64,000 nt of DNA from Thiosulfatimonas sediminis. GTDB taxonomy: Bacteria > Pseudomonadota > Gammaproteobacteria > Thiomicrospirales > Thiomicrospiraceae. Of the stretch, positions 31-14,453 are shown one piece after another. The stretch covers positions 1,860,001 to 1,924,000 of the forward strand of contig NZ_AP021889.1 in assembly GCF_011398355.1 (NCBI RefSeq). Direction: 5' to 3'. The notes below the pieces were generated by a model, which saw only the letters and a program-made list of their open reading frames with translations, was not told the origin of the DNA and did no database searches. Positions within the stretch are counted from its first letter, which is position 1, and every line of letters begins with the position of its first letter. The position numbers were made by a program, and so were the translations under genes.

Positions 31-900
31 TCATGACTCCACCTTTTTTAGGTGCTTCTTTTGACTTTTAGTAGGGTACTTAAACGCTTGTATCAGATCT
101 CCGTTTACTTCATAACGCTTTAATTGCCCTACTTCAATTAATTCATCATGTGCTTTTTTTATAGCCTTTTTAAAATCATATAAAGATTTTGTTTGGCTCC
201 CGCAAAGCCTATGAATGCTCTCTATTTTCATTGGGTATGGCTTAGCATGACTGCTATACAATCCGTGTAGCCAAAGCGACAAAGGCTTATCTCTAAGCTT
301 TTGACGCTGATCAAAGTCTAGCTTCGACCATCCGCTATCAAATAAGCAGATCAAACCACCATTGAATTTAAAACGGTACTCATCCGTTTTTTCGTCTAGT
401 TCACCGCTAATTCCGCACAGCTGGCCAAAGTAGGTTTTCTCACCTTTAATCGTGATTTCAACATCCGCTGATCGCAGTCGCGCAAGTCCTTTTTTGAGAC
501 TATCGTAGTCTCTCTTAGACGTCCCTTTTCCCAGTTGTTTGAGTATTTCATAGGCAGAAAAAAGCGCTTCATTCCCCAACGGATTAGCCCTTGAAAGATG
601 CAATAACGCTTCCCACAGATTTAAATCTGCTTGCGTCAATTGGATGCCGGTGTAACGAATTTCGTAGCCTTCCAGCGTTGCAATTAACTCTCGTTCACAA
701 AAACGCCTATTTCGCCCCTGAGTGGCGCTAAAAAGCGCCCCTCTGAGTACGGCATTAGGTGCACCCCAACTCATTTCTTCCCAACCAGGTAAGCACATTT
801 GTTTTGGTTGTTTTTGTTCTGGCTTAACAGGTTTTGAATGATTTGAAGTCGGGATTTTCTCCCTCATTTCATCCAATTTTTGCTGAAGATTAGCATTCAT
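31..900 (-). CDS. TrfA-like plasmid/ICE replication initiator
   Basis: This 289-residue protein resembles TrfA, the initiator of IncP plasmids, which binds origin iterons and opens the DNA. The resemblance runs along most of the length: an LPGWEEMSWGAPNAVLRGALF segment near residue 38 (TrfA has a similar proline/tryptophan then PN..RSALF stretch), YTGIQLTQADLNLWEALL near 83, and YPMKIESIHRLCGS near 222, matching the TrfA winged-helix region. The start is the ATG at 900, 3 bases after the preceding gene's stop. It is the last visible gene of a parA-parB-DUF2857-initiator series reading off the window's left edge. Known PFGI-1-class elements do not, to my knowledge, typically carry TrfA here. 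No iterons are visible; an origin may lie outside the window. Family call from remembered motifs, no search run. Confidence 0.8.
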   Translation of the reverse strand: MNANLQQKLDEMREKIPTSNHSKPVKPEQKQPKQMCLPGWEEMSWGAPNAVLRGALFSATQGRNRRFCERELIATLEGYEIRYTGIQLTQADLNLWEALLHLSRANPLGNEALFSAYEILKQLGKGTSKRDYDSLKKGLARLRSADVEITIKGEKTYFGQLCGISGELDEKTDEYRFKFNGGLICLFDSGWSKLDFDQRQKLRDKPLSLWLHGLYSSHAKPYPMKIESIHRLCGSQTKSLYDFKKAIKKAHDELIEVGQLKRYEVNGDLIQAFKYPTKSQKKHLKKVES

Positions 901-903
901 ATC

Positions 904-1482
904 TTAGATCTCCTGCAAGCATTGTTTTAAGTCTGCACCTGATCGATATTCTTCAATGACCGTCCAGACCACTTTTAAATTCGCATCGATACCTTCTTTA
1001 ATCAAAAGATCACAAATCTCGCAGTAGTCCTTTGCACCAATATCTTTGGTGGTCAGCTCGCTTACCAGATGGTATTTTTCAATAATTCTGTCTTCTAGTT
1101 TTATGCTAACGACGCGCTTCATTCTTTTCGCATCAACACCCGTAGCAATTCTTCTTGCACAGGCTTCTCGCTTACTGATACCAAAAAAGTGATACAAGAA
1201 ATCATTTGGTGCGCCCAGCGCTATGCAACGCTCAATTAGCTTTGACTCACCTACCATTTGCTTGATGAATGAAATAGACTCTTCATTCGCGACCACACGA
1301 AACGGCTGTATTCTTGACTTTGAAAGCCGCTCTATATGAATTTGTTCTAAGTTAGAAAAAACATTAATATCCTGTTCATTCAACCCCCATTCAGCCATCA
1401 ACTCTTTAAGGCGACCGTCCGCCGATTGCTGGCAAATCTCACGAATAAGTAGGCTTAGAATATCGCGCTGAAAGTTAGCCAT
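904..1482 (-). CDS. DUF2857-like integrative element protein
   Basis: A 192-residue soluble protein of unknown function. Its size, position directly after an ICE-type parB, and central segment (ALGAPNDFLYHFFGISKREA, about residues 90-109) fit the DUF2857/STY4526 family that accompanies parB in SPI-7 and PFGI-1 elements. The segment around residues 85-120 looks like a helix-turn-helix (FGISKREACARR), so DNA binding is possible but unproven. The ATG at 1482 overlaps the parB stop by 8 bases, with a strong GGAGGT ribosome-binding site inside the parB end, so translational coupling is likely. Family assignment is moderate; function is unknown. Confidence 0.6.
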   Translation of the reverse strand: MANFQRDILSLLIREICQQSADGRLKELMAEWGLNEQDINVFSNLEQIHIERLSKSRIQPFRVVANEESISFIKQMVGESKLIERCIALGAPNDFLYHFFGISKREACARRIATGVDAKRMKRVVSIKLEDRIIEKYHLVSELTTKDIGAKDYCEICDLLIKEGIDANLKVVWTVIEEYRSGADLKQCLQEI

Positions 1483-3112
1483 TTTGCACCTCCCACAACG
1501 CTATTTTTTCTTTAGTAGCGCTCTCGATAAGCTTGCGAGTAATAACGCCCAATTGGCTGTACTTGTTGTTGAGAATGTCACTCGATGATAGCGGCAGGTT
1601 AAAAAATAATGCCGCAGTAGTGACATACTGGCCAAGATCACTCAGATCATCAAAACGCTCTTCTACTAATGCCTTCAGATCGTTTTCATGTGCAATCAAA
1701 TCACTGTATTTCGTGACTTGATTACCCAATGTCGCACCGCAATTCAAATACAGCGCATACCAGACTTGCCAAATACGTTTAAACTCTGGTTTTTCGTCAT
1801 CAATACCGCAATTAGTAAAATGGATTTCTTGCGGTAAATCGGCAAGCGCCCAACCAAACCCGCGGTTTGTTTTAATGACAATATCCTCAATACCGGCTTC
1901 TTCAGCCAATAGTACCGCCTGCTTAAGTGCAATTTGTCTCAGAAGATCTAAATCATCCTCTTCAACTCCTGGTTCAGCTCCTTCAAGAAGTTGTTCGACC
2001 AATTCACCCTCTACATCTACATCATTTTTTTCTGTAGATGGTTTTACCTGATCACTTTCTTTTGACTTGGTTTCAGGCTCAACCGTATTTTGTGTAGGCT
2101 CATCACCGATCTCTATCAAATCCTCAACACTCTCATCTTCCTCTTCAATCGCATCCCGTTCCTTACGATTTTCGATAGGATTTAATGGTGCCGTGCTATC
2201 TTCACCTCTATCTTGTTCTGGCTTCTTCTGCCCTTTTGGGCTATTAGACTCTGCAATCTTGATTCGGATTGAGTGAATATCGATACCAGTTGTTAATGCT
2301 GCTTCGGCTTCAAATGCACGCACAATTTCATCAGCATCCAACCCACTTTCAGAATGCTTATAAGCCTCTTTTAAAGACTCGTTAAACACTTCTTTAAACT
2401 TGTCTTCCGGAAAGCCTTCTTTATCCTTACCAATTTCTTGCCAGACCGTTTTAAGCTGACCTTCAGTTTTACGCACCCGCTCGACCACTGGCTTACCAGC
2501 ACCGGCTTCCAACAATTCCGGTAGCACCGGATAAAGCTCTTCTATCGCGTAAATCAATGCACTTAAAACAGTTCTTCCTAGTGAATAACCACTTCTCTTT
2601 AACTCAGTCTCTAAGTCCCTTATTGACAACTTTCTATCAAGGTCTTTCTCAATTAGATCTCTCGCTTCAACAACCCCTCTCGCTCGATCGAGAAGGGTTA
2701 AATTGCCGCGTAGATCATTTTCGGTTAAATGGCTGATTAGTAGATCTTGTTCTTTTTCATACGGCTCAAAATAAACGTGTACATACAGATAAGCTTCATC
2801 TTTTGTCTCTTGATAAAGCTCTTTCAGTACAGCAAGACGTGTATTGCCACCAGCTCTGGTGGTGTAGTTATGCTCACCTGGTCTGCGAGTAATAGTGAAA
2901 GGCTGTTCAAGCCCCTTTTCACGAATGGATGCTTTGATTTCGGCATAGGCTTCATTTTTTACTTTACGAGGGTTTTTCTCGTAAGGCTCAATATCAACGA
3001 CTTTTACGCGCATAGCAGTACGCGAAATCGGATCCGCCGGTTCTGATACCTGGCTCTTTGCTTGTCGGTTGCCTGATGCAACCAATGACACTCGCTCAAT
3101 CTTTTTAGCCAT
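1475..3112 (-). CDS. parB: ParB-family protein of PFGI-1-class integrative elements
   Basis: A 545-residue ParB-type protein, expected to bind centromere-like DNA and work with the adjacent ParA in element stability. The ParB N-terminal domain is clear: VDIEPYEKNPR near residue 40, ITRRPGEHNYTTRAGGNTRL near 75, and HLTENDLRGNLTLLDRARG near 126. This pattern, with RAGGNTR and ENDLRG, is typical of ICE PFGI-1 ParB rather than chromosomal Spo0J. Residues of about 290-380 are highly acidic and low-complexity, probably a linker. I chose the ATG at 3112 over an upstream in-frame TTG at 3127, because GGAGGT sits just before the ATG and the ATG overlaps the parA stop by 8 bases. The protein is longer than chromosomal ParB (about 300 residues). 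Confidence 0.88.
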   Translation of the reverse strand: MAKKIERVSLVASGNRQAKSQVSEPADPISRTAMRVKVVDIEPYEKNPRKVKNEAYAEIKASIREKGLEQPFTITRRPGEHNYTTRAGGNTRLAVLKELYQETKDEAYLYVHVYFEPYEKEQDLLISHLTENDLRGNLTLLDRARGVVEARDLIEKDLDRKLSIRDLETELKRSGYSLGRTVLSALIYAIEELYPVLPELLEAGAGKPVVERVRKTEGQLKTVWQEIGKDKEGFPEDKFKEVFNESLKEAYKHSESGLDADEIVRAFEAEAALTTGIDIHSIRIKIAESNSPKGQKKPEQDRGEDSTAPLNPIENRKERDAIEEEDESVEDLIEIGDEPTQNTVEPETKSKESDQVKPSTEKNDVDVEGELVEQLLEGAEPGVEEDDLDLLRQIALKQAVLLAEEAGIEDIVIKTNRGFGWALADLPQEIHFTNCGIDDEKPEFKRIWQVWYALYLNCGATLGNQVTKYSDLIAHENDLKALVEERFDDLSDLGQYVTTAALFFNLPLSSSDILNNKYSQLGVITRKLIESATKEKIALWEVQNG

Positions 3113-3932
3113 TGTGCACCTCCGCAAACAAATCCAACTCGTTCACCAAATTTGTCATCAACTCTAAAGCTGATCCTCCTTTTCGTTTCGTCGAAGTTTC
3201 ATATCGATGGGCTGGCATTTGGCTACTCGTCGCATCACGAAACGCAACGGTATCTGGGATTTCTGCATTAAGGACTCGAACAGGTACATCACAAATTTCT
3301 GAATAATCCAGTGAACGTATCTCTTCAGCGTAATCGCGGCTATCATTTGTGTTTGAAGTGCAATTAAGGAAAGCGCATAAAGGGGCGATTTTGCACCCCA
3401 TAAATTGAGTGGATTCGGCCAAACGATTGACCATACCTAGTGTGTTGTGGATAAACTCACCGGCACAAAGTTTGTCGGGTATAACAGGGCTAATCAGTAA
3501 GTCGGCTGCGATAATAGTTGCTTCTTGAAGCGCCCCGACCGCGCCTTGCGTATCGATGATAATCACATCGAATTGGGTAAATCGCTGATTAAGGATGTAT
3601 CTCAGGCGGGTACGACCGTCTGCGGTGTTTCTTACCCAGTTTTGCAGATCACCTTCCGGATCATCACTCATGACAATATGCAGGTTGTCTTCAATTTTTG
3701 AAGCGACCTCTGAAGGCTCTACTTTTGGATTGGTTACTAGGTGTGTTAGGCCGTAATCCGCAATCTCATCAACCGCATAATATTCCGATAAGCTTGGCTG
3801 CACATCAGCATCAATCATCAGTACATTTAATTTTTGGTCTGCGAGGAAAGCGCCAAGGTTAGCACTTGTAGTTGTTTTTCCGACGCCGCCTTTTGTCGAT
3901 GCAACGGCAATAATGATAGGTGTTTTTTTCAT
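3105..3932 (-). CDS. parA: ParA/Soj partition ATPase of an integrative element
   Basis: A 275-residue ParA-family ATPase that partitions or maintains DNA together with ParB. The deviant Walker A motif KGGVGKTTTS (K14, K19) is intact, with DADVQPSLSEYY at about 42-53 and VIIIDTQGA as Walker B. It resembles the Soj proteins of PAPI-1/PFGI-1-type elements. In PAPI-1 the soj gene next to the attachment site is reported to be needed to maintain the excised circle (established for that element). Here the gene lies 118 bases from the 3' end of an initiator tRNA and points away from it, the same geometry. An AAGAGA ribosome-binding site lies about 8 bases before the ATG. The promoter must lie in or across the tRNA end, so expression could change on excision (inference). 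Confidence 0.9.
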   Translation of the reverse strand: MKKTPIIIAVASTKGGVGKTTTSANLGAFLADQKLNVLMIDADVQPSLSEYYAVDEIADYGLTHLVTNPKVEPSEVASKIEDNLHIVMSDDPEGDLQNWVRNTADGRTRLRYILNQRFTQFDVIIIDTQGAVGALQEATIIAADLLISPVIPDKLCAGEFIHNTLGMVNRLAESTQFMGCKIAPLCAFLNCTSNTNDSRDYAEEIRSLDYSEICDVPVRVLNAEIPDTVAFRDATSSQMPAHRYETSTKRKGGSALELMTNLVNELDLFAEVHNG

Positions 3933-4050: not shown

Positions 4051-4127
<77 letters not shown>

Positions 4128-4717: not shown

Positions 4718-4980
4718 GGAGATACAGAACAAGTCCATATGGCTTCAGGCACAGAAGAGTTTGACTGAGCAAGGCGGCGGTTCTTGTCATGTCTAGACCT
4801 GACAAAAACAGGAAACAGCACGCAAGTAAATTCTTCAATGCCTTGAAGGGAGAGGACTGCATGGTCAACCTTGTTGTTACGCCTCTCATCCATAGCGTTG
4901 GCTATGCATTTCGATGCAAGCTTAGAATTTGCGCCTTGCAATCCCACGCTGAAGTCAATTGGGACTTGTTCTGTGCCTCC
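4718..4980 (+). repeat. Short inverted-repeat-bounded element, copy A (MITE-like)
   Basis: A 263-base non-coding element. Its ends are inverted repeats of about 19 bases: GGAGATACAGAACAAGTCC at 4718-4736 and the complement of GGAGGCACAGAACAAGTCC at 4962-4980, differing at two positions. The core at 4771-4812 contains AAGGCGGCGG, then GTCTAGACCTGACA and AAAACAGG. The same core recurs inverted at 6772-6953 and, more diverged, at 56674-56975. No transposase is encoded, so a non-autonomous element is the likely nature (inference). Its right end stops 23 bases before the chemoreceptor start codon. Confidence 0.75.
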
Positions 4981-5003
4981 TTCACAGGAAAGGTAGGTTG
5001 AAT

Positions 5004-6704
5004 ATGTTTCTCGATTTAGGTCATAAAGCATTAGATAAATGTGAAGTTGAAAAAGCACACCTCGCGGCTGAGTTAACAGCGATTAACCACGTTATGGCAA
5101 CCATCGAATTTACCCCACAAGGCGAAATCGTCAAAGCTAACCAAAATTTTTTAAATGTCATGGGCTATCAGTCAAATGAGATTATCGGTAAACATCACCG
5201 CATTTTTGTACCGCAAGAAATTCATCATTCCGCAGATTACGCGGTGTTTTGGCAGAAGCTTGCCGCAGGTGAAACCTTTGCAGAGCGTTTTCAAAGACTC
5301 TCGAAACAAGGTGAAATCGTCTGGTTAAATGCGTCTTATAATCCGATTTATGATGCGGAAGGCCAAGTCACCCGAGTGATCAAATTTGCCACCGACATCA
5401 CTAAAGACGTTGCCGCAGAGCTGGAAAATAAAGCGAAGTTAACCGCCATTGACAAAGTCATGGCAGTGATTGAATTTGGTTCTAAGGGGAATATCTTAAC
5501 TGCCAACCAAAATTTCTGCCAAGCCATGGGTTACTCACAACAGGAACTCAAAGGAATGCACCATCGCTCTTTCGTATCCGACGAATTTGCACAAAGTAGC
5601 GATTACCTTAAATTCTGGGAAGACTTAGCCAAAGGACATCCAAAGGTGGACACCTTCCAACGTGTCACCAAATCAGGCCAACCAATTTGGCTGGACGCCA
5701 GTTATAACCCTATTTTTGATGTTAAAGGCAAGGTCGTTAAGGTAATTAAATACGCCAATGACATCACCGAGCAAGAAAATAGTCGTATCGAACTACGCGA
5801 GGCCGTCCGAGCGTTTACCAAAGTGATGAACGCTCAAGCAGAAGGTGATTTAACACTCTCGGTTTCCGGTTTTGATGCCAATCCAGACTTAAAAATGTTG
5901 CAAGATGCCATTAACCAAACCGAAGCGAAAATACGCGAAGTAGTGGATATTACTCGCGATGCTGCGGAAACCGTCAGCACTGCATCGAATGAAGTGAATC
6001 AAGGTTCGCAAGATTTGAGTCAACGCGTGCAACAGCAAGCAGCGGCATTGGAAGAGACTTCCGCAACGATGAACGAAATGAACAGCCAAGTGCAATCCAC
6101 CAGTGAAAACGCACACCATGCCTCAGATGTCGCGAGACAGGTTCAAAGCCATGCCAATAAAGGGATGGACATCATGAAGAACACCATTGATGCAATGAAT
6201 TCCATTCAGCAATCCAGTTCGCAAATTGAAGAAATCGTCACCCTGATTGACAGCATCGCTTTCCAAACCAACCTGCTGGCATTGAACGCCGCGGTCGAAG
6301 CCGCCCGCGCCGGAGAACACGGGCGTGGCTTTGCGGTGGTCGCCAGCGAAGTGCGTAACTTGGCACAAAAATCGGCCGAAGCGGCAAAAAACATCAAAAA
6401 GCTGATTGACGATACCGTTGACCGGGTGAAATTAGGTTCTGAATTAGCCAATGCTTCTGGCGAGATGCTAAAAGAAATCAACGGTTCAATTAATTCTATG
6501 ACCAATATGATTGATCAAATTGCCTCCGCTTCAGCAGAACAGGCAGAAGGGGTAACGCAAGTACATCATGCCATTTCGGATATAGATGGCGTCACTCAAC
6601 AGAATGCGGCTTTAGTGGAAGAAACCAGTGCGGCATCAGAAAGCTTAACCCATCAAGCTGGGGTACTACGTGAACAGATGGGCTTCTTTAAATCAAAAAA
6701 TTAA
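5004..6704 (+). CDS. Soluble methyl-accepting chemotaxis protein with two PAS domains (BdlA-like)
   Basis: A 566-residue chemoreceptor that should signal to CheA/CheW. Two PAS-PAC units (about 24-145 and 146-268) are near-duplicates: both contain TANQNF- or KANQNF-type strands followed by an HHR-S/I-F segment. Then come a HAMP-like linker (about 270-330) and an MCP signalling domain with the conserved hairpin tip [20 protein letters not shown] near residue 418. There is no transmembrane segment and no C-terminal CheR-tethering pentapeptide. The layout matches cytoplasmic sensors such as Pseudomonas BdlA (biofilm dispersion) or Aer-like redox sensors; PAS ligand unknown. I chose ATG 5004 because AGGTAGG precedes it; an upstream in-frame start at 4959 would lie inside the repeat. 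No other chemotaxis genes are in the window. Confidence 0.9.
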
Positions 6705-6771
6705 GTGATTTAATCTGCAATCGCAGACCGGCTAGGCACGCATACCCCTACTCACTTTTTTAAAATACTAT

Positions 6772-6953
6772 GTGACACAGAATAAGTCCCCATTGACTTC
6801 GGCGAGGCCTTGCAGGCTTCGCCCATAGGGCTTTGAAGAGTTTAACGGCGTGGTGCTTCCTGTTTTTGTCAGGTCTGGACACGAAGGCAAACAGCCGCCT
6901 TCTCAGCCAAATTGTTCTGTCCCTGAAGCCATTTAGCTTTATCTGCGTCTTCT
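6772..6953 (-). repeat. Short inverted-repeat element, copy B (inverted relative to copy A)
   Basis: About 182 bases. Read on the minus strand it repeats the copy A core: AAGGCGGCTGTTTGCC, then GTCCAGACCTGACAAAAACA, then GAAGTCAAT.GGGACTT.TTCTGTG at the outer end (6772-6803). The other terminus (6925-6953) is degraded but still alignable with the copy A end. It is about 80 bases shorter than copy A. It lies 67 bases after the chemoreceptor stop, so the gene is bracketed by two inverted copies. Confidence 0.75.
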
Positions 6954-7085
6954 TAACTGTTGTATTCAACCCATCTAGTGAATCGATACCGCCACTTTTT
7001 GAGCGAATAATTGACTTCTATCAGGGCATAAATACTTACCCTCTGTTTTAATACGTTTAATTCCAATTAACTTGGCTGCGCGCTC

Positions 7086-10000
7086 GTGATTTCAGATCAA
7101 ACCTCCCCTATCTCCGAAGTAACTCTTGTCTGGAAGCATCAAACACTCTGGTCGGTTATTTATGTTTCCGACAGTATCGCCCCCCTCTTTGGGCATAGCG
7201 CCAGCAGCTATTTAGCCGCCGACTTTTCATGGTTACAAGACATTCATCCAGAAGACCAAGACCAGTTGCAACAAGAAATTGCCAGCGCGATACGCAATCC
7301 GAGCACAGTCGCGTTTACCCCAACGGTATATCGCTATTGTGATGCCACTGGACAATATCATTTTATCGATGCGCCAATCCAGATTAGCCGCGGTGAGAAT
7401 AACAAGAGCATCACTCTGGCAACCACCTTATGTCCGGCACATGAACTTGTCTGCGTCAACAACTTCCGCCAACTCAAATACGTCACCGAACAGTTGCCAA
7501 ACTTAATGGTCTATGTGTTTGAAATGAATTTACTTGGCGAAGCACGTCTACCCTTCACCTCTGAGCATTTTTCTGACCTTTTTGGACTTGCGCCTGAAAA
7601 CGTGACTGCAGATGCCAGCCCCGCTTTTGCACGCGTGTTAAACGAGGATAACGATGCGCTGCGTGCCTCGCTAAAAGAATCCTATGAGCAGCTAACTCAA
7701 TGGCAACACTGTTTTCGGGTACAACATCCGGACAACAAGATTTTATGGTTAAAAGGCCAAGCGACTCCGCAACGCATTAATCAAAATTGGGTCCGTTGGC
7801 ACGGCTACATTTATGACGCTACCGCAGAAATCCAAAACACTTTGCAAGCTCAAGAGACTCAGTTGTACTTTGAAACCCTACTCAAATACAGTTCCGATGC
7901 GATTCATGTTTTGGATACGCAAGGTAACGTCATTAACTGCAGCCACTCTTTTGCGAGCTTACTCGGTTACAGCCATGAAGAGGCTTTGCAACTAAACGTT
8001 AGAGACTGGGATGCGAAATATTCCGAAGAAGAACTTCTACAGCACATCGCCAGATTAACCGATAAACCGATGATTTTTGAAACCCAACATCGCACTAAAC
8101 ACGGTACGCTCTTCGATGTCGAAATTAACGCCAACACAGTGCAATTTAATGGCAAAACCTATCTGTTTGCCGCTGCCAGAGATATGACGCAGCAACATCA
8201 ACTGCAAATCCAGCTAGAGAAAGAAAAAACCTTTATTGAAGCACTGGTGGACAACGCCAACGCGATTATTGCGGTAATTGAAGCCGACGGCACCATGTCG
8301 CGCCTCAATAAATACGGACAAATTATGACCGGCTTTAATCAAGAGCAGATCGCGTCCAAACCGTATTTTTGGACGCGTTTTTTACCAGAGGCCATTAAAA
8401 AAGACATCAAAGCCTTATTTGATGGATTTGCTCTTGGGCAAACCATCCACTCCTATCGCAATGCGTGGATTTCCAAAGAGGGTCACCAGCGAATGTTTGA
8501 ATGGTCAAACACGGTGATTTATCACAACGATGGCAGCGTCAACTATCTTTTGGCAATTGGTTTGGACATCAGCGAACAGCGCCAACAGAGCCCAGAATTT
8601 GAACGCGTGTTTGAAGCCATGAGCGATGCCATGTGTGTGATTGACTTAAACGGCGTCATCGAATCATGCAACAAAACCTTTAATCAACAGTTCAGTCATA
8701 ACGCCTTTAACTGCAGCGGGCATTCGTTAAGCGAACTTATCAAACCTCTGAAAAATACTTTTAATCAACTGCTCAACGCGGTCATCAAACAACAAGTGGT
8801 TAAAGAGATTCATTTTAGCTACCACTCCCCTCTCGGCGAGACCCTTAAATGCAGAGCAAAATTAATATTGCTCCCAAACAACCAGCAGATTTTGGTCAAA
8901 ATTCGCGACATCACGGAACTGCATAAACTCGAACAACAACTGCAACAAGAGCAGAATTACCACAACGCATTGCAACGTCACCAAAATGCACAGTGGCAAC
9001 ATCTACTAGCCACCGCCCAGCTTAACTTAGACGGCGTGATCGGCCTACAAAATCGACTCTTACAAACCATAACGGATACAAAAAACGCCGCCAACATTTC
9101 GCTCAGTCAACAGGTATTAAGTACGCTGCGCGACGAGCTTTTAAGCCAACCTTTTCAGCCAGATCTCGCAACCACCGTCTTGCCTGAAGAAGATAAAAAC
9201 ACGCAACAAGAGTATTTTTTTCTGGCCGATGTTATCCACGAGGTGCTCTTGCTGGTCGAACACCAAGCACAACAAAATGGCGTACAAATTAACTACCATG
9301 ATGACGGAGCACTGACCCAAGCGTTACGCGGAAAAAGTGGCGTGCTGCGCCTAATTTTACAAAGTATTTTTAATTACATCATTCACTGTGCGCCCAAAAC
9401 ACCCATTGCGTTCTTTGCAGAGCAACTCAATGCCGCTGGAAATCAGATTTTACTGCGCTTGACGTTGCGTGCAGATTTAACAACCTCTCTATGCAAACTT
9501 CCTTTAAGTGCAGACAACTTTGCCCTGGCTCAGCTATGGTGTAATAAATTTGGTGCCAAACTCCAACACAGTAAAGACGCCGCCAACACAACACTTATCA
9601 GTGTGCAGGCAAGCCTATTTTTAGCCAATTCCGTGGATTCAACAACAGCCCCACTGGAGCCAAAGTTTCCACTGACGACAACACCAGACGCTCTAGAAAA
9701 GCAGACTGTGGAAGTGCCGTTCGATCTATCCCACTTGCAAAAAATATTAAGCAATAGCGCACAAATTTCGCATCTATTAAGCGCTTTTGATGGCCTGCTT
9801 GATACCTTCAAGCAAGCAATGCAGCAACAAACCCTGTCAGCACAAGAATGGAAAGCGTTGGTGCATCAACTTAAAGGCACTGCAGCCAATTTACACATTG
9901 AGGCTTTATCACAACTGTGTCGTCGCTACGAAACGTTAGAAAGGCCAGCAGAACACCATGCCCAAAGGCTTTTGATTTTGAACTTTGTAACCGACTTAAG

Positions 10001-10274
10001 CAATAAAATAGCGCACTATCAACAGCAAACCACCGCGACGGTGCCTGCTAGCAAAGTTCGATATAGTGCAGAGCAAATGCAGCAACACATGCAACAAATC
10101 TTACCGGTGCTACAAGCTAGAGGATTTGTCCCAGAAGAAAAATTGAGCCGCTTGACTTCAATGCTTGAACAACACCATTCGGCCCAGCTGGCACAAGACG
10201 TTTACGATGCGATTGATGGCTTTGAATTTGAACTGGCAATCGACACCTTAACCCCCCTTATAGAAGGACAGTAA
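7086..10274 (+). CDS. Five-PAS signalling protein with degenerate histidine-kinase core and C-terminal Hpt domain
   Basis: A 1062-residue soluble protein. PAS-type domains occupy about residues 10-115, 130-245, 262-372, 383-500 and 510-620. A region resembling a hybrid kinase dimerisation domain follows near 640 (QHLLATAQLNLDGVIGLQ), but the usual SHEIRTP block with the phospho-accepting His is absent. The ATPase-like part (about 715-850) keeps a partial N-box (LRLILQSIFNYI) but no DxGxG or GxGxxL motifs, so ATP binding is unlikely. The C-terminus has a good Hpt motif, VHQLKGTAANL, with His at about 927. It probably receives or relays phosphate without being a kinase (inference). GTG 7086 is the only plausible start and lacks a clear ribosome-binding site. 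The next gene, 1 base away, is its likely partner. Confidence 0.85.
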   Translation: MISDQTSPISEVTLVWKHQTLWSVIYVSDSIAPLFGHSASSYLAADFSWLQDIHPEDQDQLQQEIASAIRNPSTVAFTPTVYRYCDATGQYHFIDAPIQISRGENNKSITLATTLCPAHELVCVNNFRQLKYVTEQLPNLMVYVFEMNLLGEARLPFTSEHFSDLFGLAPENVTADASPAFARVLNEDNDALRASLKESYEQLTQWQHCFRVQHPDNKILWLKGQATPQRINQNWVRWHGYIYDATAEIQNTLQAQETQLYFETLLKYSSDAIHVLDTQGNVINCSHSFASLLGYSHEEALQLNVRDWDAKYSEEELLQHIARLTDKPMIFETQHRTKHGTLFDVEINANTVQFNGKTYLFAAARDMTQQHQLQIQLEKEKTFIEALVDNANAIIAVIEADGTMSRLNKYGQIMTGFNQEQIASKPYFWTRFLPEAIKKDIKALFDGFALGQTIHSYRNAWISKEGHQRMFEWSNTVIYHNDGSVNYLLAIGLDISEQRQQSPEFERVFEAMSDAMCVIDLNGVIESCNKTFNQQFSHNAFNCSGHSLSELIKPLKNTFNQLLNAVIKQQVVKEIHFSYHSPLGETLKCRAKLILLPNNQQILVKIRDITELHKLEQQLQQEQNYHNALQRHQNAQWQHLLATAQLNLDGVIGLQNRLLQTITDTKNAANISLSQQVLSTLRDELLSQPFQPDLATTVLPEEDKNTQQEYFFLADVIHEVLLLVEHQAQQNGVQINYHDDGALTQALRGKSGVLRLILQSIFNYIIHCAPKTPIAFFAEQLNAAGNQILLRLTLRADLTTSLCKLPLSADNFALAQLWCNKFGAKLQHSKDAANTTLISVQASLFLANSVDSTTAPLEPKFPLTTTPDALEKQTVEVPFDLSHLQKILSNSAQISHLLSAFDGLLDTFKQAMQQQTLSAQEWKALVHQLKGTAANLHIEALSQLCRRYETLERPAEHHAQRLLILNFVTDLSNKIAHYQQQTTATVPASKVRYSAEQMQQHMQQILPVLQARGFVPEEKLSRLTSMLEQHHSAQLAQDVYDAIDGFEFELAIDTLTPLIEGQ

Positions 10275-10275
10275 A

Positions 10276-11538
10276 ATGAATAAACCGAGCCAATCCATTT
10301 TAATTGTCGATGATGATCCACTTAATTTGAAATTCGCCGCAGCGGCTTTAAACGAACTTTACAACGTTCACTTTGCGTTGTCTGGCGCAGATGCGTTGCA
10401 TTTTTTAGAGCGTCAGTCGGTCAATATGATTTTGCTGGATATTTTTATGCCGGGGATGAGTGGCTTTGACGTACGCGATGCCTTACAGAAACAGCCGAAA
10501 CTGGCCAAAATTCCCATTATCTATTTAACCATCGACCAAACCGAAGAAACGGTTCAAGCTGCATTTGCCCATGGCGCTTGCGACTATATTGTCAAACCTT
10601 TTCTGAATAAAGAGTTGTTGGCGCGCGTGCGCTATCGTCTACAAAATGATGAACTCGCTCTGCAACTACAGAGTTCATTAAAAGAGAAAGAGTATCTACT
10701 GTCGGTCATTGATGACTATGTGATGTATGTACAAACTGACTTACAAGGCAATATTATTGAAATCAGTTCGGCACTCTGCGCTTCTTTGGAGTGCCAATCA
10801 GAACAGGTCATCGGCCAACCGATTAACATTTTTCGATCGCCGAAAACACCTGATGCCTTCTATGAACGCCTATGGCACAACTTACAAAATGGCCAACATT
10901 TTAGAGATGTCATTGAAAACCAAAGCCTTAATGGCGAAGGCTCGCATTGGTACAAAATTGATATTAACCCCTTTAAAAACACGCTTGGGAAAACCGTCGG
11001 CTATCTGGCGTTTTACAACAATATCGATGAGCAAGTGCGCTATCAGTTAGACGCCAATCGAGATTATTTGACCGACCTCTATAATCGCGCCCACTTTTCG
11101 GCGGAATTGGTGGATGAAATTTATCGTTATAAACGCTATGGCCGCCCCTTCTCGCTCATCATGTTGGATATCGACCATTTTAAAAGTGTTAACGATCTCT
11201 TTGGCCATGATGCCGGTGATCAATGTTTGCTGGAGTTTTCCCACATCGTCAGTCAAGTGGTGCGTAAATCCGATATTTTTGCGCGTTGGGGCGGTGAAGA
11301 ATTTATGGTGCTTTGTCCGGAAACGCCGCTCGCCGGTGCACAGCGACTGGCAGAAAAAATTCGGTTTGCCATCGAACAGCATCCGTTCTCGGTCATTGGC
11401 CATAAAACCGCCAGTTTAGGGGTGGCGGAATACCATATTTCCATGAGTGCAGAAGTCCTATTAAAACGCTTAGATGAGATGCTATATGAAGCCAAAAGCG
11501 CTGGGCGCAATCAAGTTAAGGTTTACCAACTCAGATAG
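10276..11538 (+). CDS. Response regulator: receiver-PAS-GGDEF diguanylate cyclase
   Basis: A 420-residue protein that should make cyclic di-GMP under receiver control. The receiver (1-120) has the acidic DDD triad near 13, phospho-acceptor D55 in LLDIFMPGMSG, and KPF near 109. A PAS domain covers about 130-235. The GGDEF domain (about 250-420) has an intact GGEEF signature at 339-343, with a product-inhibition site R330xxD333 placed exactly five residues before it, so an active and feedback-inhibited enzyme is expected. It starts 2 bases after the stop of the PAS-Hpt protein, which suggests the Hpt domain phosphorylates this receiver. Confidence 0.93.
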   Translation: MNKPSQSILIVDDDPLNLKFAAAALNELYNVHFALSGADALHFLERQSVNMILLDIFMPGMSGFDVRDALQKQPKLAKIPIIYLTIDQTEETVQAAFAHGACDYIVKPFLNKELLARVRYRLQNDELALQLQSSLKEKEYLLSVIDDYVMYVQTDLQGNIIEISSALCASLECQSEQVIGQPINIFRSPKTPDAFYERLWHNLQNGQHFRDVIENQSLNGEGSHWYKIDINPFKNTLGKTVGYLAFYNNIDEQVRYQLDANRDYLTDLYNRAHFSAELVDEIYRYKRYGRPFSLIMLDIDHFKSVNDLFGHDAGDQCLLEFSHIVSQVVRKSDIFARWGGEEFMVLCPETPLAGAQRLAEKIRFAIEQHPFSVIGHKTASLGVAEYHISMSAEVLLKRLDEMLYEAKSAGRNQVKVYQLR

Positions 11539-11612
11539 TGTGCGCCATAATCGGATTAAAATTCGCTTGATTGTATTGTGGTTGCTGGCTGTGTCTGCGA
11601 TTAAACGCTCTT

Positions 11613-14453
11613 CTATTGATCGATGTAATCACATTTAGGGTAGGTAGAACAACCGTAAAAACGCCCATGATCAGATTCGCGTGCGGCCATATAACCAGTC
11701 GCGCATTTGGGACAAATTTTCTTCTCGGAATAATCGCACGCAGGATAATTAGAACAGCCTAAAAAGATACTGTATGGACCGCGACGTTCTTGCATTTTAC
11801 CGCTGTGACATTTAGGACACAGTGGCACTTCGACCAATTTATCGCTCATTTTCACCCGTTTAATTTTGCCCAACTGGGTAACAAATTCCGAACGATCCGA
11901 GGCACTGGACAGAACAAACACACCGCGCTTCGCACGGGTCAAAGCGACATACAACAAACGTCGCTCCTCCGCGTGGCTAAATGCTTCCGGCTGGGGAATC
12001 ACCAAATGCAGAATAGGATCATCTGAGCGCTCACTTGGAAAGCCATAAGGGCCAGACTCCAAGCCCATCAGAATCACATAATCGGCTTCTAAGCCTTTAG
12101 AGGAATGAATGGTTTTAAACGTAATTTGTAAAGCGGCATAACGCGCTTGATAATGTGCCAAATTATCTGGCTTTTGGCGATGATAGCGCGCCAAAAGATA
12201 AACACTTAAAGTAACATCGCGTTTCTGCGCAGTGTTGTTTAAACGCCATAACAGTTTTTGCACCCAATCAAGCTGATCACTCTCACTCTCATAAGCTTCA
12301 ATGCGCACTTGATCCGCTGGAATATCCGCATGTGCCTTAACCCCCTTACGTAGTTGCTCAGGGTTTTGTTGGACAAACTCCGCGGCGACATCCGCAATGC
12401 CCTGATAACAGCGAAAAGTTTGCGTTAAGTAATTGGTGGCCGCAAAACCAAAATGTCGGTCAAAATGCGTCATGATGTCGATGTCAGCACCGGAAAAACG
12501 ATAAATAGACTGCCAATCATCGCCGACTGCCATCAGCTTACACTGCGGATTTTGATTTAATAGCGCCTGCAATAAACGCTTACGATCTTGCGAAATATCC
12601 TGAAACTCGTCCACCAGAATATAGTTAAAAGGATGCACAAATTCGTGACTTTCCAACCGCTCGCACGCCAAATTGATTTGGTCGTTAAAATCTATCTGCC
12701 CTGCCGACTGCAAATCGTCTTGATAAGCCTGATACAAAGGCTTAAAGATTTCCAAAAACAGCGTCGTGCGAATCGGGTCATGCACTTCCGTGCTGGCCAG
12801 CTCTTGCTCAAATGCAGCACTGTCACCGCCGTTAGCTTTAAAGTGGCGTAAGAAAGCTTCAAATATGGGTAAATCGTCCTCAGGCCGGTAATGTTTATTA
12901 ACCAACTGCGCCAACGCTTCGTTGCTCAATGGATGAAAAGCGACAGCGTGCGCTTGCAGCTGCTGTTTTAAGGTCTGCAGCACACTGCCGTCATCAAATT
13001 GCGCACTATAGGTTTCGATAAAATCAATTTTTAGACGTTGCGCGGCCTTACGTTTTTTGTCGACAAAACTGCCATACTCTGGCAAAAATTCCGGCCACTT
13101 TTTTTGCGCGTTTAACGCAAAATGAAAATGGTACAAGTCGGCTTCTGGGAAGTAAAAATCCGCTAAGGTACTTTTATTTTTCGAGCCTGCCAAAGGCTGT
13201 AAATAGGTAAATTCAACCCCTTGAGACACCAACCAGTTTGCCATCGTCAAGGTTTCCAACGAACTGACTTTCATACCATTTAATGCGGTAAAAATTGGGC
13301 GCTTTTTGCCCTCTTTACTGGCCGCATAACTGGCGCCCATTTGGCTCAGATAGTCGTAATACGCTTTTTGGGTTGGCAGTGCAAACAGATTTGGACGCGG
13401 TTTTTTAGCGAGCGCAAGATAATCGTACCAGCTGTCAGCAAAGTCCTCATCCTGCAATAAGAACGCAATCTTAGACTGTAAATACGCCAGCATTTCCTTA
13501 CGATTCGCGCTCGCCAAATGAGAAAGCGCAATGGTTTGTCCTTGGGCGCGCAATACCGCTAATCCCAACGCATGAAAGGTGGCGCTGTAGCACGACTCGC
13601 CGTTACTGAACAACTGCAATTTCTGTTGCATCGCGGCGAGGCGCTCACCAATCGATCGCGCCGCTTCTTCGTTATACGCCAAAACACAAATCTGGTGCGG
13701 TTTTGCCAAGCCTTTGTTGAGTAAATACGCAACTTTGGCAACTAAAGTCGATGATTTTCCCGAGCCCGCCGAGGCGATTAACAACTGGCGGTCTTCTTCA
13801 CAAACCACCGCGCGTTGCTGTTCAGCAGTTAACGGATAGCTTTCAATCTGGCTAAACAGTGCTGCATACTGCTCAATTTCTGCCGCCATAAACCGTTCAT
13901 TATGCGCTTGGATGGCTGCGTTATCTTCGGCAAGATAGGCTTGCCAAAGCGAAATTTTCTGCCATAGGCTCTGTTCATCCGCACTGAAATCTTCTGCGCA
14001 CAACTTGTTTAAATAAGGGTGCGCTAAGAGTTGACCCGCTTGTTGATTCCACTGTTTGAGTAAATTTTGAATACACTGTTGACTAAAGTAAACGGCGGCA
14101 CTGCTCTCGGTCAAACTTGCGAGTACAGGGGTTGATGGAAGAGTGACTTGTTGTAATGCCTTTTTTAACCTGTGACGAATTTGGTAGTGCAGATGCGCGA
14201 CAAATGCGCGGCTTTTCGACGTTGCTAAATGCTGTAAACGAAAACTGCCTTGAGCGGTGCTGATGACTAACTCGTCCATAACCAACCCAATGCTCCGATA
14301 AACTCGGACAATCGCTAAGTAGTCAATCTGCTGACGCTGTTGGCCATCATGCATCAATAAATAGTCTGCATGTAACTCAAGACAGCGCTGACGATGACAC
14401 AGCTTTTGTTGCGATTGGGCGGTGTATTGGGCGTCCGGCACGAGTTTTCTCAA
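11613..14453 (-). CDS. HelD/UvrD-type superfamily 1 DNA helicase with C-terminal zinc fingers
   Basis: A 946-residue ATP-dependent helicase. The N-terminal region resembles the DNA helicase IV (HelD) N-domain. Motor motifs are intact: Walker A SAGSGKSSTLV (about residue 229), VDEFQDIS Walker B, VGDDWQSIYRFSGAD motif III, and LLYVALTRAKRG motif VI. The end carries two four-cysteine topoisomerase-type zinc fingers: CPKCHSGKM...CSNYPAC (about 880) and CPKCATGYM...CSTYPKC (about 918). Such fusions point to DNA repair or fork processing. The start is uncertain: the TTG at 14453 has no clear ribosome-binding site and a GTG at 14441 is an alternative. A large perfect palindrome lies just upstream. 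Confidence 0.88.
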   Translation of the reverse strand: MRKLVPDAQYTAQSQQKLCHRQRCLELHADYLLMHDGQQRQQIDYLAIVRVYRSIGLVMDELVISTAQGSFRLQHLATSKSRAFVAHLHYQIRHRLKKALQQVTLPSTPVLASLTESSAAVYFSQQCIQNLLKQWNQQAGQLLAHPYLNKLCAEDFSADEQSLWQKISLWQAYLAEDNAAIQAHNERFMAAEIEQYAALFSQIESYPLTAEQQRAVVCEEDRQLLIASAGSGKSSTLVAKVAYLLNKGLAKPHQICVLAYNEEAARSIGERLAAMQQKLQLFSNGESCYSATFHALGLAVLRAQGQTIALSHLASANRKEMLAYLQSKIAFLLQDEDFADSWYDYLALAKKPRPNLFALPTQKAYYDYLSQMGASYAASKEGKKRPIFTALNGMKVSSLETLTMANWLVSQGVEFTYLQPLAGSKNKSTLADFYFPEADLYHFHFALNAQKKWPEFLPEYGSFVDKKRKAAQRLKIDFIETYSAQFDDGSVLQTLKQQLQAHAVAFHPLSNEALAQLVNKHYRPEDDLPIFEAFLRHFKANGGDSAAFEQELASTEVHDPIRTTLFLEIFKPLYQAYQDDLQSAGQIDFNDQINLACERLESHEFVHPFNYILVDEFQDISQDRKRLLQALLNQNPQCKLMAVGDDWQSIYRFSGADIDIMTHFDRHFGFAATNYLTQTFRCYQGIADVAAEFVQQNPEQLRKGVKAHADIPADQVRIEAYESESDQLDWVQKLLWRLNNTAQKRDVTLSVYLLARYHRQKPDNLAHYQARYAALQITFKTIHSSKGLEADYVILMGLESGPYGFPSERSDDPILHLVIPQPEAFSHAEERRLLYVALTRAKRGVFVLSSASDRSEFVTQLGKIKRVKMSDKLVEVPLCPKCHSGKMQERRGPYSIFLGCSNYPACDYSEKKICPKCATGYMAARESDHGRFYGCSTYPKCDYIDQ

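Follow-up and report, generated by a model that had tools for sequence, protein, structure and literature searches.

A probable RcsD-like phosphotransfer pseudokinase ahead of a diguanylate cyclase in Thiosulfatimonas sediminis

The stretch of DNA that we analysed (the window) comprises 64,000 nucleotides of the closed, 2.72 Mb genome of Thiosulfatimonas sediminis (contig NZ_AP021889.1, positions 1,860,001 to 1,924,000), and our subject is a pair of genes within it, separated by a single base: the first encodes a 1062-residue protein with the outline of a histidine kinase and a histidine-containing phosphotransfer (Hpt) domain, the second a diguanylate cyclase. The features of the pair are given below in window coordinates, with DHp standing for the dimerisation and histidine phosphotransfer domain, CA for the catalytic and ATP-binding domain, REC for the receiver and ORF for open reading frame.

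7086-10274, + strand: pseudo-histidine kinase with Hpt, 1062 amino acids, GTG start (ORF without internal stop)
7155-8924, + strand: five PAS domains (Pfam, NCBIfam and likeness to the PAS domains of L018, an intact relative)
8922-9185, + strand: DHp-like helical hairpin without phospho-acceptor His (alignment, column counts, model)
9009-9011, + strand: codon of Ala642, His in 21/21 intact relatives (column counts)
9186-9629, + strand: degenerate ATPase (CA) domain (alignment, profile, model)
9711-10040, + strand: Hpt domain, a helical bundle (Pfam PF01627, our own profile at 2e-12, model)
9864-9866, + strand: codon of the Hpt residue His927, His in 21/21 intact relatives
10056-10271, + strand: C-terminal helical domain common to the intact relatives (alignment, model)
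10276-11538, + strand: diguanylate cyclase, REC-PAS-GGDEF, 420 amino acids (ORF, Pfam)
10288-10644, + strand: cyclase receiver with D12/D13, D55, T85 and K107 (profile, residue check)
11263-11304, + strand: I-site RxxD (residues 330-333; R330/D333) and GGEEF (339-343) of the cyclase (residue check)

The first protein runs from five PAS domains through a region without Pfam match to the Hpt domain and a C-terminal helical stretch. The five PAS domains, already counted in an earlier note on this DNA, are borne out by Pfam families and by their similarity to those of L018, and lie at approximately residues 24-111, 130-250, 262-374, 378-502 and 509-613. Pfam lists only the best stretch for each PAS family (24-111, 262-367 and 509-613, with 154-229 below the cut-off), and the second and fourth domains are also backed by the likeness to L018 (31% identity over 116 and 46% over 123 positions, respectively). 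At E values up to 1, Pfam lists no match to HisKA, HATPase_c or Response_reg in this protein, and an internal receiver is absent by our own REC profile as well. The one or two receivers that its relatives carry between CA and Hpt are thus missing, a feature that the earlier note does not mention.

The relatives were collected mainly through the cyclase, by searches of 58 genomes including the host's own (E up to 1e-80, yielding 4 others) and of Campylobacterota (E up to 1e-95, scoring limited to 11 candidates for each genome, yielding 16 places in 14 of 151 genomes); a second pair in the host's genome was found via the kinase. This gave 21 other pairs with a cyclase of the REC-PAS-GGDEF type, 5 from the host's family (one of them in its own genome) and 16 from Campylobacterota, and the paired cyclases found by the cyclase searches are 38-49% identical to that of the window. 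In all 21 the upstream gene encodes DHp, CA, one or two receivers, Hpt and the HEIRTP motif. The Hpt pattern failed for three of them (L103, L106 and L109), where the Hpt histidine was checked separately, and some of the loci end at contig borders, with the kinase core present in every one. Of the 22 pairs, that of the window alone lacks a kinase core, and with all the others complete the loss was seen just once; three further pairs outside this set (L131, L132 and L135), met by a search with the C-terminal half, are also intact. The intact pair in the host itself is as follows.

L076:2463-8964 (G000:C1 1058462-1064963), same genome: intact paralogous pair, a 1756-residue hybrid kinase with two receivers and Hpt, then a 415-residue protein with REC and GGEEF

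None of the homologues examined in a survey for the same losses, which the earlier note had proposed, shares them. With residues 617-1062 as the query, 11 others among 62 genomes of the family (own included, E up to 0.001) match at 12 places, all intact, and among 369 genomes of the class (own included, E up to 1e-6, no more than 4 candidates of any genome being scored) there is one other match, also intact. In 151 genomes of Campylobacterota (the family of G427, E up to 1e-5) the query matches at 16 places in 14 genomes without a second case, all of the 14 places examined being intact (G544 and G549 were left out). Because the query responds mostly to Hpt, these searches could overlook a degenerate protein whose Hpt has diverged. 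A cyclase search of the 369 genomes of the class (E up to 1e-84) gave no other match, a weak negative with 4 candidates scored per genome; the plasmid collection held no match, and the whole 1062-residue protein found no relative in the genome collection. The intact kinase lies in the same frame as the match throughout the family except in G081, where it occupies the neighbouring frame: there the Hpt and C-terminal domain form a separate frame of ~200 residues behind the hybrid kinase (L063; L070:3792-4391), which may be another route by which an Hpt became independent.

To describe what became of the kinase core we aligned it with 19 intact kinase cores, and its DHp domain with those of the 21 paired kinases. 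By these alignments, what remains of a DHp-CA module spans residues 613-850. The earlier note had held that the H-box block is deleted, which is wrong: from the end of the fifth PAS domain to GVIGL the protein aligns without a gap, so that we reject a deletion in favour of substitution, and the column that holds His in 21/21 relatives is Ala642, accompanied by changes of E to T643, R to Q645 and P to N647. Within the second DHp helix there is a gap of 4 residues and an insertion of 7, and the length of the DHp linker is preserved. In the CA domain the conserved Asp is replaced by K750 and the N-box Asn by S760 and Y764, a block of ~20 residues that would hold the G1 and F boxes is deleted, and the G2 box is replaced by LSADNFAL (807-814). 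The features of a hybrid histidine kinase that we looked for are all lacking: the H-box His, the N, G1, F and G2 boxes and the internal receiver. That the protein is nevertheless a kinase, with an unconventional ATP site and an atypical acceptor, for instance H639, strikes us as extremely improbable; a histidine does lie three residues from the canonical position, but K750, Y764, the deleted G1 and F boxes and the replaced G2 box all speak against a working ATP site.

The ATPase-like region derives from a genuine ATPase domain, on the basis of a match of our own kinase-core profile to residues 710-798 (1e-4) and of the predicted fold. The AlphaFold model of the core, a structure prediction suggested by the earlier note, shows a DHp hairpin together with a lidless alpha/beta fold of the ATPase type at a mean pLDDT (predicted local distance difference test) of 74.2, with values >80 in most of the ATPase part, ~59-71 in the middle of the hairpin and <50 at model residues 81-97; the fold is to be read with the bias of an input alignment made up of intact kinases. 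Two earlier alignments were judged misaligned: one of the full tail, which had placed the ATPase remnant on the relatives' second receiver and was replaced by separate alignments, and one of 37 rows mixing kinase and Hpt fragments, which was also replaced. The placement on the ATPase domain is backed by the profile match and by the model, with the bias just described.

If the dead core has kept a regulatory role, it could bind and alter another kinase, such as the intact paralogue, in the manner of RetS or DivL, with Hpt being secondary. The preserved linker length and the structural matches, which include phytochrome A, RetS and DivL as solved structures of pseudo-kinases or of domains related to kinases, favour this: by VIA the core model matches GacS (Z 17.5, root-mean-square deviation (rmsd) 5.6, 214 residues aligned), phytochrome A (Z 17.3, rmsd 2.2, 144 residues), RetS (Z 16.7, rmsd 5.7, 171 residues) and DivL (Z 14.6, rmsd 6.4, 197 residues), and among the 50 Foldseek matches listed phytochrome A ranks 1, RetS 3, ZraS 5 and DivL 16. 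Because the active kinases GacS and ZraS rank equally high, however, the fold cannot separate a kinase from a pseudokinase, and the very low identity of the DHp domain and the retention of the Hpt motif also count against this model, which we consider quite unlikely.

The Hpt domain contrasts with the core. PF01627 matches residues 898-957 at 28.9 bits (cut-off 24.6), the model is a helical bundle with a mean pLDDT of 87.7, and the combination of an HxLKG motif with such a bundle identifies an Hpt protein. His927 lies within HQLKGTAAN, and the positions common to the intact rows are H927 (21/21), K930 (20/21), G931 (21/21) and N935 (20/21). Foldseek returned no match to the Hpt model below E 0.001, with known Hpt structures such as 1wn0 and 2ooc only at E > 1. 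The protein has the anatomy of the RcsD-like class, a core that resembles a kinase but has neither catalytic His nor ATP site, with an Hpt on its C-terminal side.

We compared the decay of the individual domains by their mean identity to the intact set, the kinase domains of the window protein being cut by hand and those of the relatives by profile. Identity is 19.6 for DHp against an intact mean of 69.5 (lowest intact 63.4) and 17.2 for CA against 51.5 (47.3), as opposed to 19.6 against 30.5 (19.8) for Hpt and 18.6 against 20.9 (15.9) for the C-terminal domain. Within the cyclase the values are 46.1 against 52.9 (48.7) for the receiver, 33.9 against 38.0 (10.6) for PAS and 46.3 against 50.1 (34.6) for GGDEF. 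By these figures the kinase core has collapsed; every other domain falls inside the family range or slightly under it. The comparison with L018 gives the same picture, as the Hpt is 29% identical (L018 to four other intact relatives: 27-39%) and the CA domain 17% (51-62%).

The open frame of so diverged a core bears on whether the gene is still in use. In a neutral simulation, a simple model in which L018 stands in for the ancestor, the 260-codon core of L018 was taken to 20% identity, and 0/300 copies were free of stops (mean 13.2 stops, fewest 4). As no neutral copy stayed open, selection has probably preserved the frame, most simply for the Hpt behind the core. A gene on its way to becoming a pseudogene, with a cyclase independent of it, would agree with the singleton status of the loss, with the absence of the pair from this locus in four relatives (see below) and with the diverged Hpt and cyclase receiver. 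Set against this are the intact 1062-codon frame, the simulation, and the retained Hpt motif and PAS similarity, and we regard such a decay as very unlikely.

The cyclase downstream has, by its residues, all that is expected of a diguanylate cyclase response regulator, with the receiver residues, the I-site and GGEEF in place. As for candidate phosphate donors, 32 places in the host's genome match HATPase_c, 30 of them with loci; among these we count nine hybrid kinases that carry a receiver and show no match to Hpt in frame.

G000:C1 at ~923766, 766098, 602744, 2463029, 871209, 458318, 393385, 898982 and 1661089: candidate donors (Pfam and our own profiles)

The frame at 393385 extends past its locus, and the absence of Hpt there comes from the Pfam search alone. 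Pfam missed one Hpt that our own profile found (near 440000), and because our profiles were trained on the family of the window protein a divergent Hpt or REC may be overlooked. Compared with the second receiver of L018, the receivers of seven of the nine candidates are 39-48% identical and those of the other two 27-28%. The intact paralogue could also serve as a donor. The search for an orphan kinase that the earlier note had suggested thus produced several candidates among the host's own hybrid kinases, and no orphan donor was identified.

Together these data make it probable, in our view, that the protein is an RcsD-like phosphotransfer pseudokinase, which would be charged by the receiver of another hybrid kinase and hand the phosphate to the adjacent cyclase. 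The ancestor would have been a hybrid kinase of the form PAS(n)-DHp-CA-REC(1-2)-Hpt that had a REC-PAS-GGDEF cyclase as its partner, and loss of the kinase core and receivers in the host lineage would have left a dedicated, PAS-carrying phosphotransfer protein. His927 would then be phosphorylated by another hybrid kinase (either one with a receiver and no Hpt, or the intact paralogue), phosphate would pass from the Hpt to Asp55 of the cyclase, and GGDEF would make cyclic di-GMP, while the PAS domains and the dead DHp-CA may persist as a dimeric platform able to gate access to the Hpt. We infer the donor, the direction of phosphate, the PAS gating, the dimerisation and the ancestral status of the intact form. 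It is conceivable, though we put this forward only tentatively, that PAS ligands decide whether phosphate from several Hpt-less hybrid kinases reaches one cyclase, which would make the protein not a kinase but a signal-controlled junction, acting on cyclic di-GMP solely through the gating of a relay that it is unable to charge.

The earlier note had described a pseudo-histidine kinase whose Hpt receives phosphate from elsewhere, and this agrees with the motif losses, the domain-specific decay, the 21/21 intact relatives and the Hpt-less hybrid kinases. Its account of the ORF, the PAS domains, the Hpt and the cyclase residues also holds (His927, D55 and GGEEF are all present in the sequence), as does its interpretation as a kinase-dead Hpt protein ahead of a cyclase, leaving aside the supposed H-box deletion. 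Its "acceptor or sink" is less specific than the data permit, as the conserved gene pairing argues for delivery to the adjacent cyclase, a pure sink being a rival reading. As such a sink or brake, the Hpt would drain the cyclase receiver, itself charged by small phosphodonors or another kinase, to an unrelated receiver and so lower cyclic di-GMP synthesis. Hpt phosphotransfer is reversible and the anatomy does not fix the direction of phosphate, but no receiver is left in the protein, so that a partner in trans would be needed, and the arrangement in the relatives looks built for delivery to the cyclase. Although RcsC of Pseudomonas aeruginosa PA14, for which both phosphorelay and phosphatase action are described (PMC3842833), counts in its favour, we consider a sink unlikely.

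Several points weigh against a relay to the cyclase. The window's Hpt and cyclase receiver are each the most divergent of their 22-row sets, a divergence that would fit adaptation to a new donor and equally a mild relaxation of constraint, and position 934 of the Hpt, Gly in 18/21 relatives, is Ala934 as in 3/21. H639, three residues before Ala642, is a conceivable displaced acceptor, and the kinase-like fold of the core model may owe something to the intact kinases in its input alignment. No donor is pinpointed among the candidates, and a stand-alone Hpt frame of 116 residues at 229306 could serve the Hpt-less kinases instead. Finally, the degenerate form is known from this one protein alone, too few to show that it is conserved.

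The surroundings of the pair were compared with those in the genus. The neighbouring helicase has a strong match in 5 genus genomes besides the host's own, and in the four that we examined the order of nuoN, a 105-residue gene and the helicase is kept. Behind the helicase all four carry a similar gene of 138-143 residues (by eye), which does not lie at 11538-11613 of the window, where the pair is found instead; the rest of the genome was not searched for it. In two of the four the next gene encodes a chemoreceptor with 48% identity to that of the window, which carries two PAS domains and lies directly upstream of the pair (4959-6704). The pair occurs in 0/4 of the relatives' fetched stretches, which reach ~4 to 11 kb beyond the helicase, and because it is absent there in four relatives it is not a general feature of this locus. 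Downstream of the helicase in G013 there is an IS21-like pair of frames (L121:943-3233), presumably istA and istB of IS21. A recent insertion from a donor of other base composition finds no support, as the GC content of the pair (44.4-45.8%) is close to that of the window (45.9%); its base composition is native, and an older transfer remains conceivable. Promoter-like (8 versus 7.9) and terminator-like (8 versus 6.8) sites in 6600-11700 are at chance level. At the start of the window (31-3932 and 4051-4127), genes for a TrfA-like protein (above the Pfam cut-off), a PFGI-1-type ParB (above the NCBIfam cut-off) and ParA end beside a tRNA-Met, a layout that resembles the end of an integrative element, and in G011 a 98.5% identical ParA also lies beside tRNA-Met.

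Among known systems, RcsD (YojN) is closest in its way of working. It is described as having a PAS-like domain, an inactive HATPase and an Hpt, passing phosphate from RcsC to RcsB, with a domain organisation suggesting a duplicated ancestor in common with RcsC (PMC7418988), and as lacking the transmitter His (PMC3842833). Both proteins are large, kinase-like and equipped for relay by an Hpt behind an inactive ATPase; RcsD, however, sits in the inner membrane, has an ABL domain and feeds RcsB, whereas the window protein has five PAS domains, precedes a diguanylate cyclase and has no membrane segment predicted by a simple hydropathy scan (top 19-residue Kyte-Doolittle mean = 1.25), hence by that scan not the membrane anchor of an RcsD orthologue. 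The likeness that we draw is one of functional class, and orthology is not claimed. Further precedents come from P. aeruginosa PA14, where a relay from PvrS through RcsC has been proposed and CblT relays from CblS; neither of these relaying sensors is described as kinase-dead (PMC3842833).

Pairs of the L018 and L082 type, from relatives in or near Thiomicrorhabdus and from Campylobacterota, share the gene order, similar PAS domains, the Hpt, the C-terminal domain and the cyclase, and differ in their intact DHp-CA and one or two receivers (21/21). RetS of Pseudomonas aeruginosa, among the best structural matches of the predicted DHp-CA fold, carries receivers and works on GacS, whereas the window protein has an Hpt and no receivers. 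DivL of Caulobacter, also a DHp-CA match (Z 14.6), is not known to have an Hpt and regulates CckA. It has been called a pseudo-histidine kinase (PMC9430884). A putative Hpt relay tied to cyclic di-GMP has been described for HmrABCX, with a different anatomy, in a paper that also discusses a hybrid kinase without clear catalytic His (PMC11481889). Among the papers listed by our searches of open-access literature, none reports a kinase-dead Hpt protein ahead of a diguanylate cyclase.

The principle is known from RcsD, and what is new would be the cyclase as output and the visible ancestor. Most specialists may find here an interesting example more than a surprise. The intact form can still be seen in 21 pairs, including the second pair of the host itself, and a comparison of before and after would show how a hybrid kinase may turn into a phosphotransfer pseudokinase, a conversion already supposed for RcsD and here tied to cyclic di-GMP.

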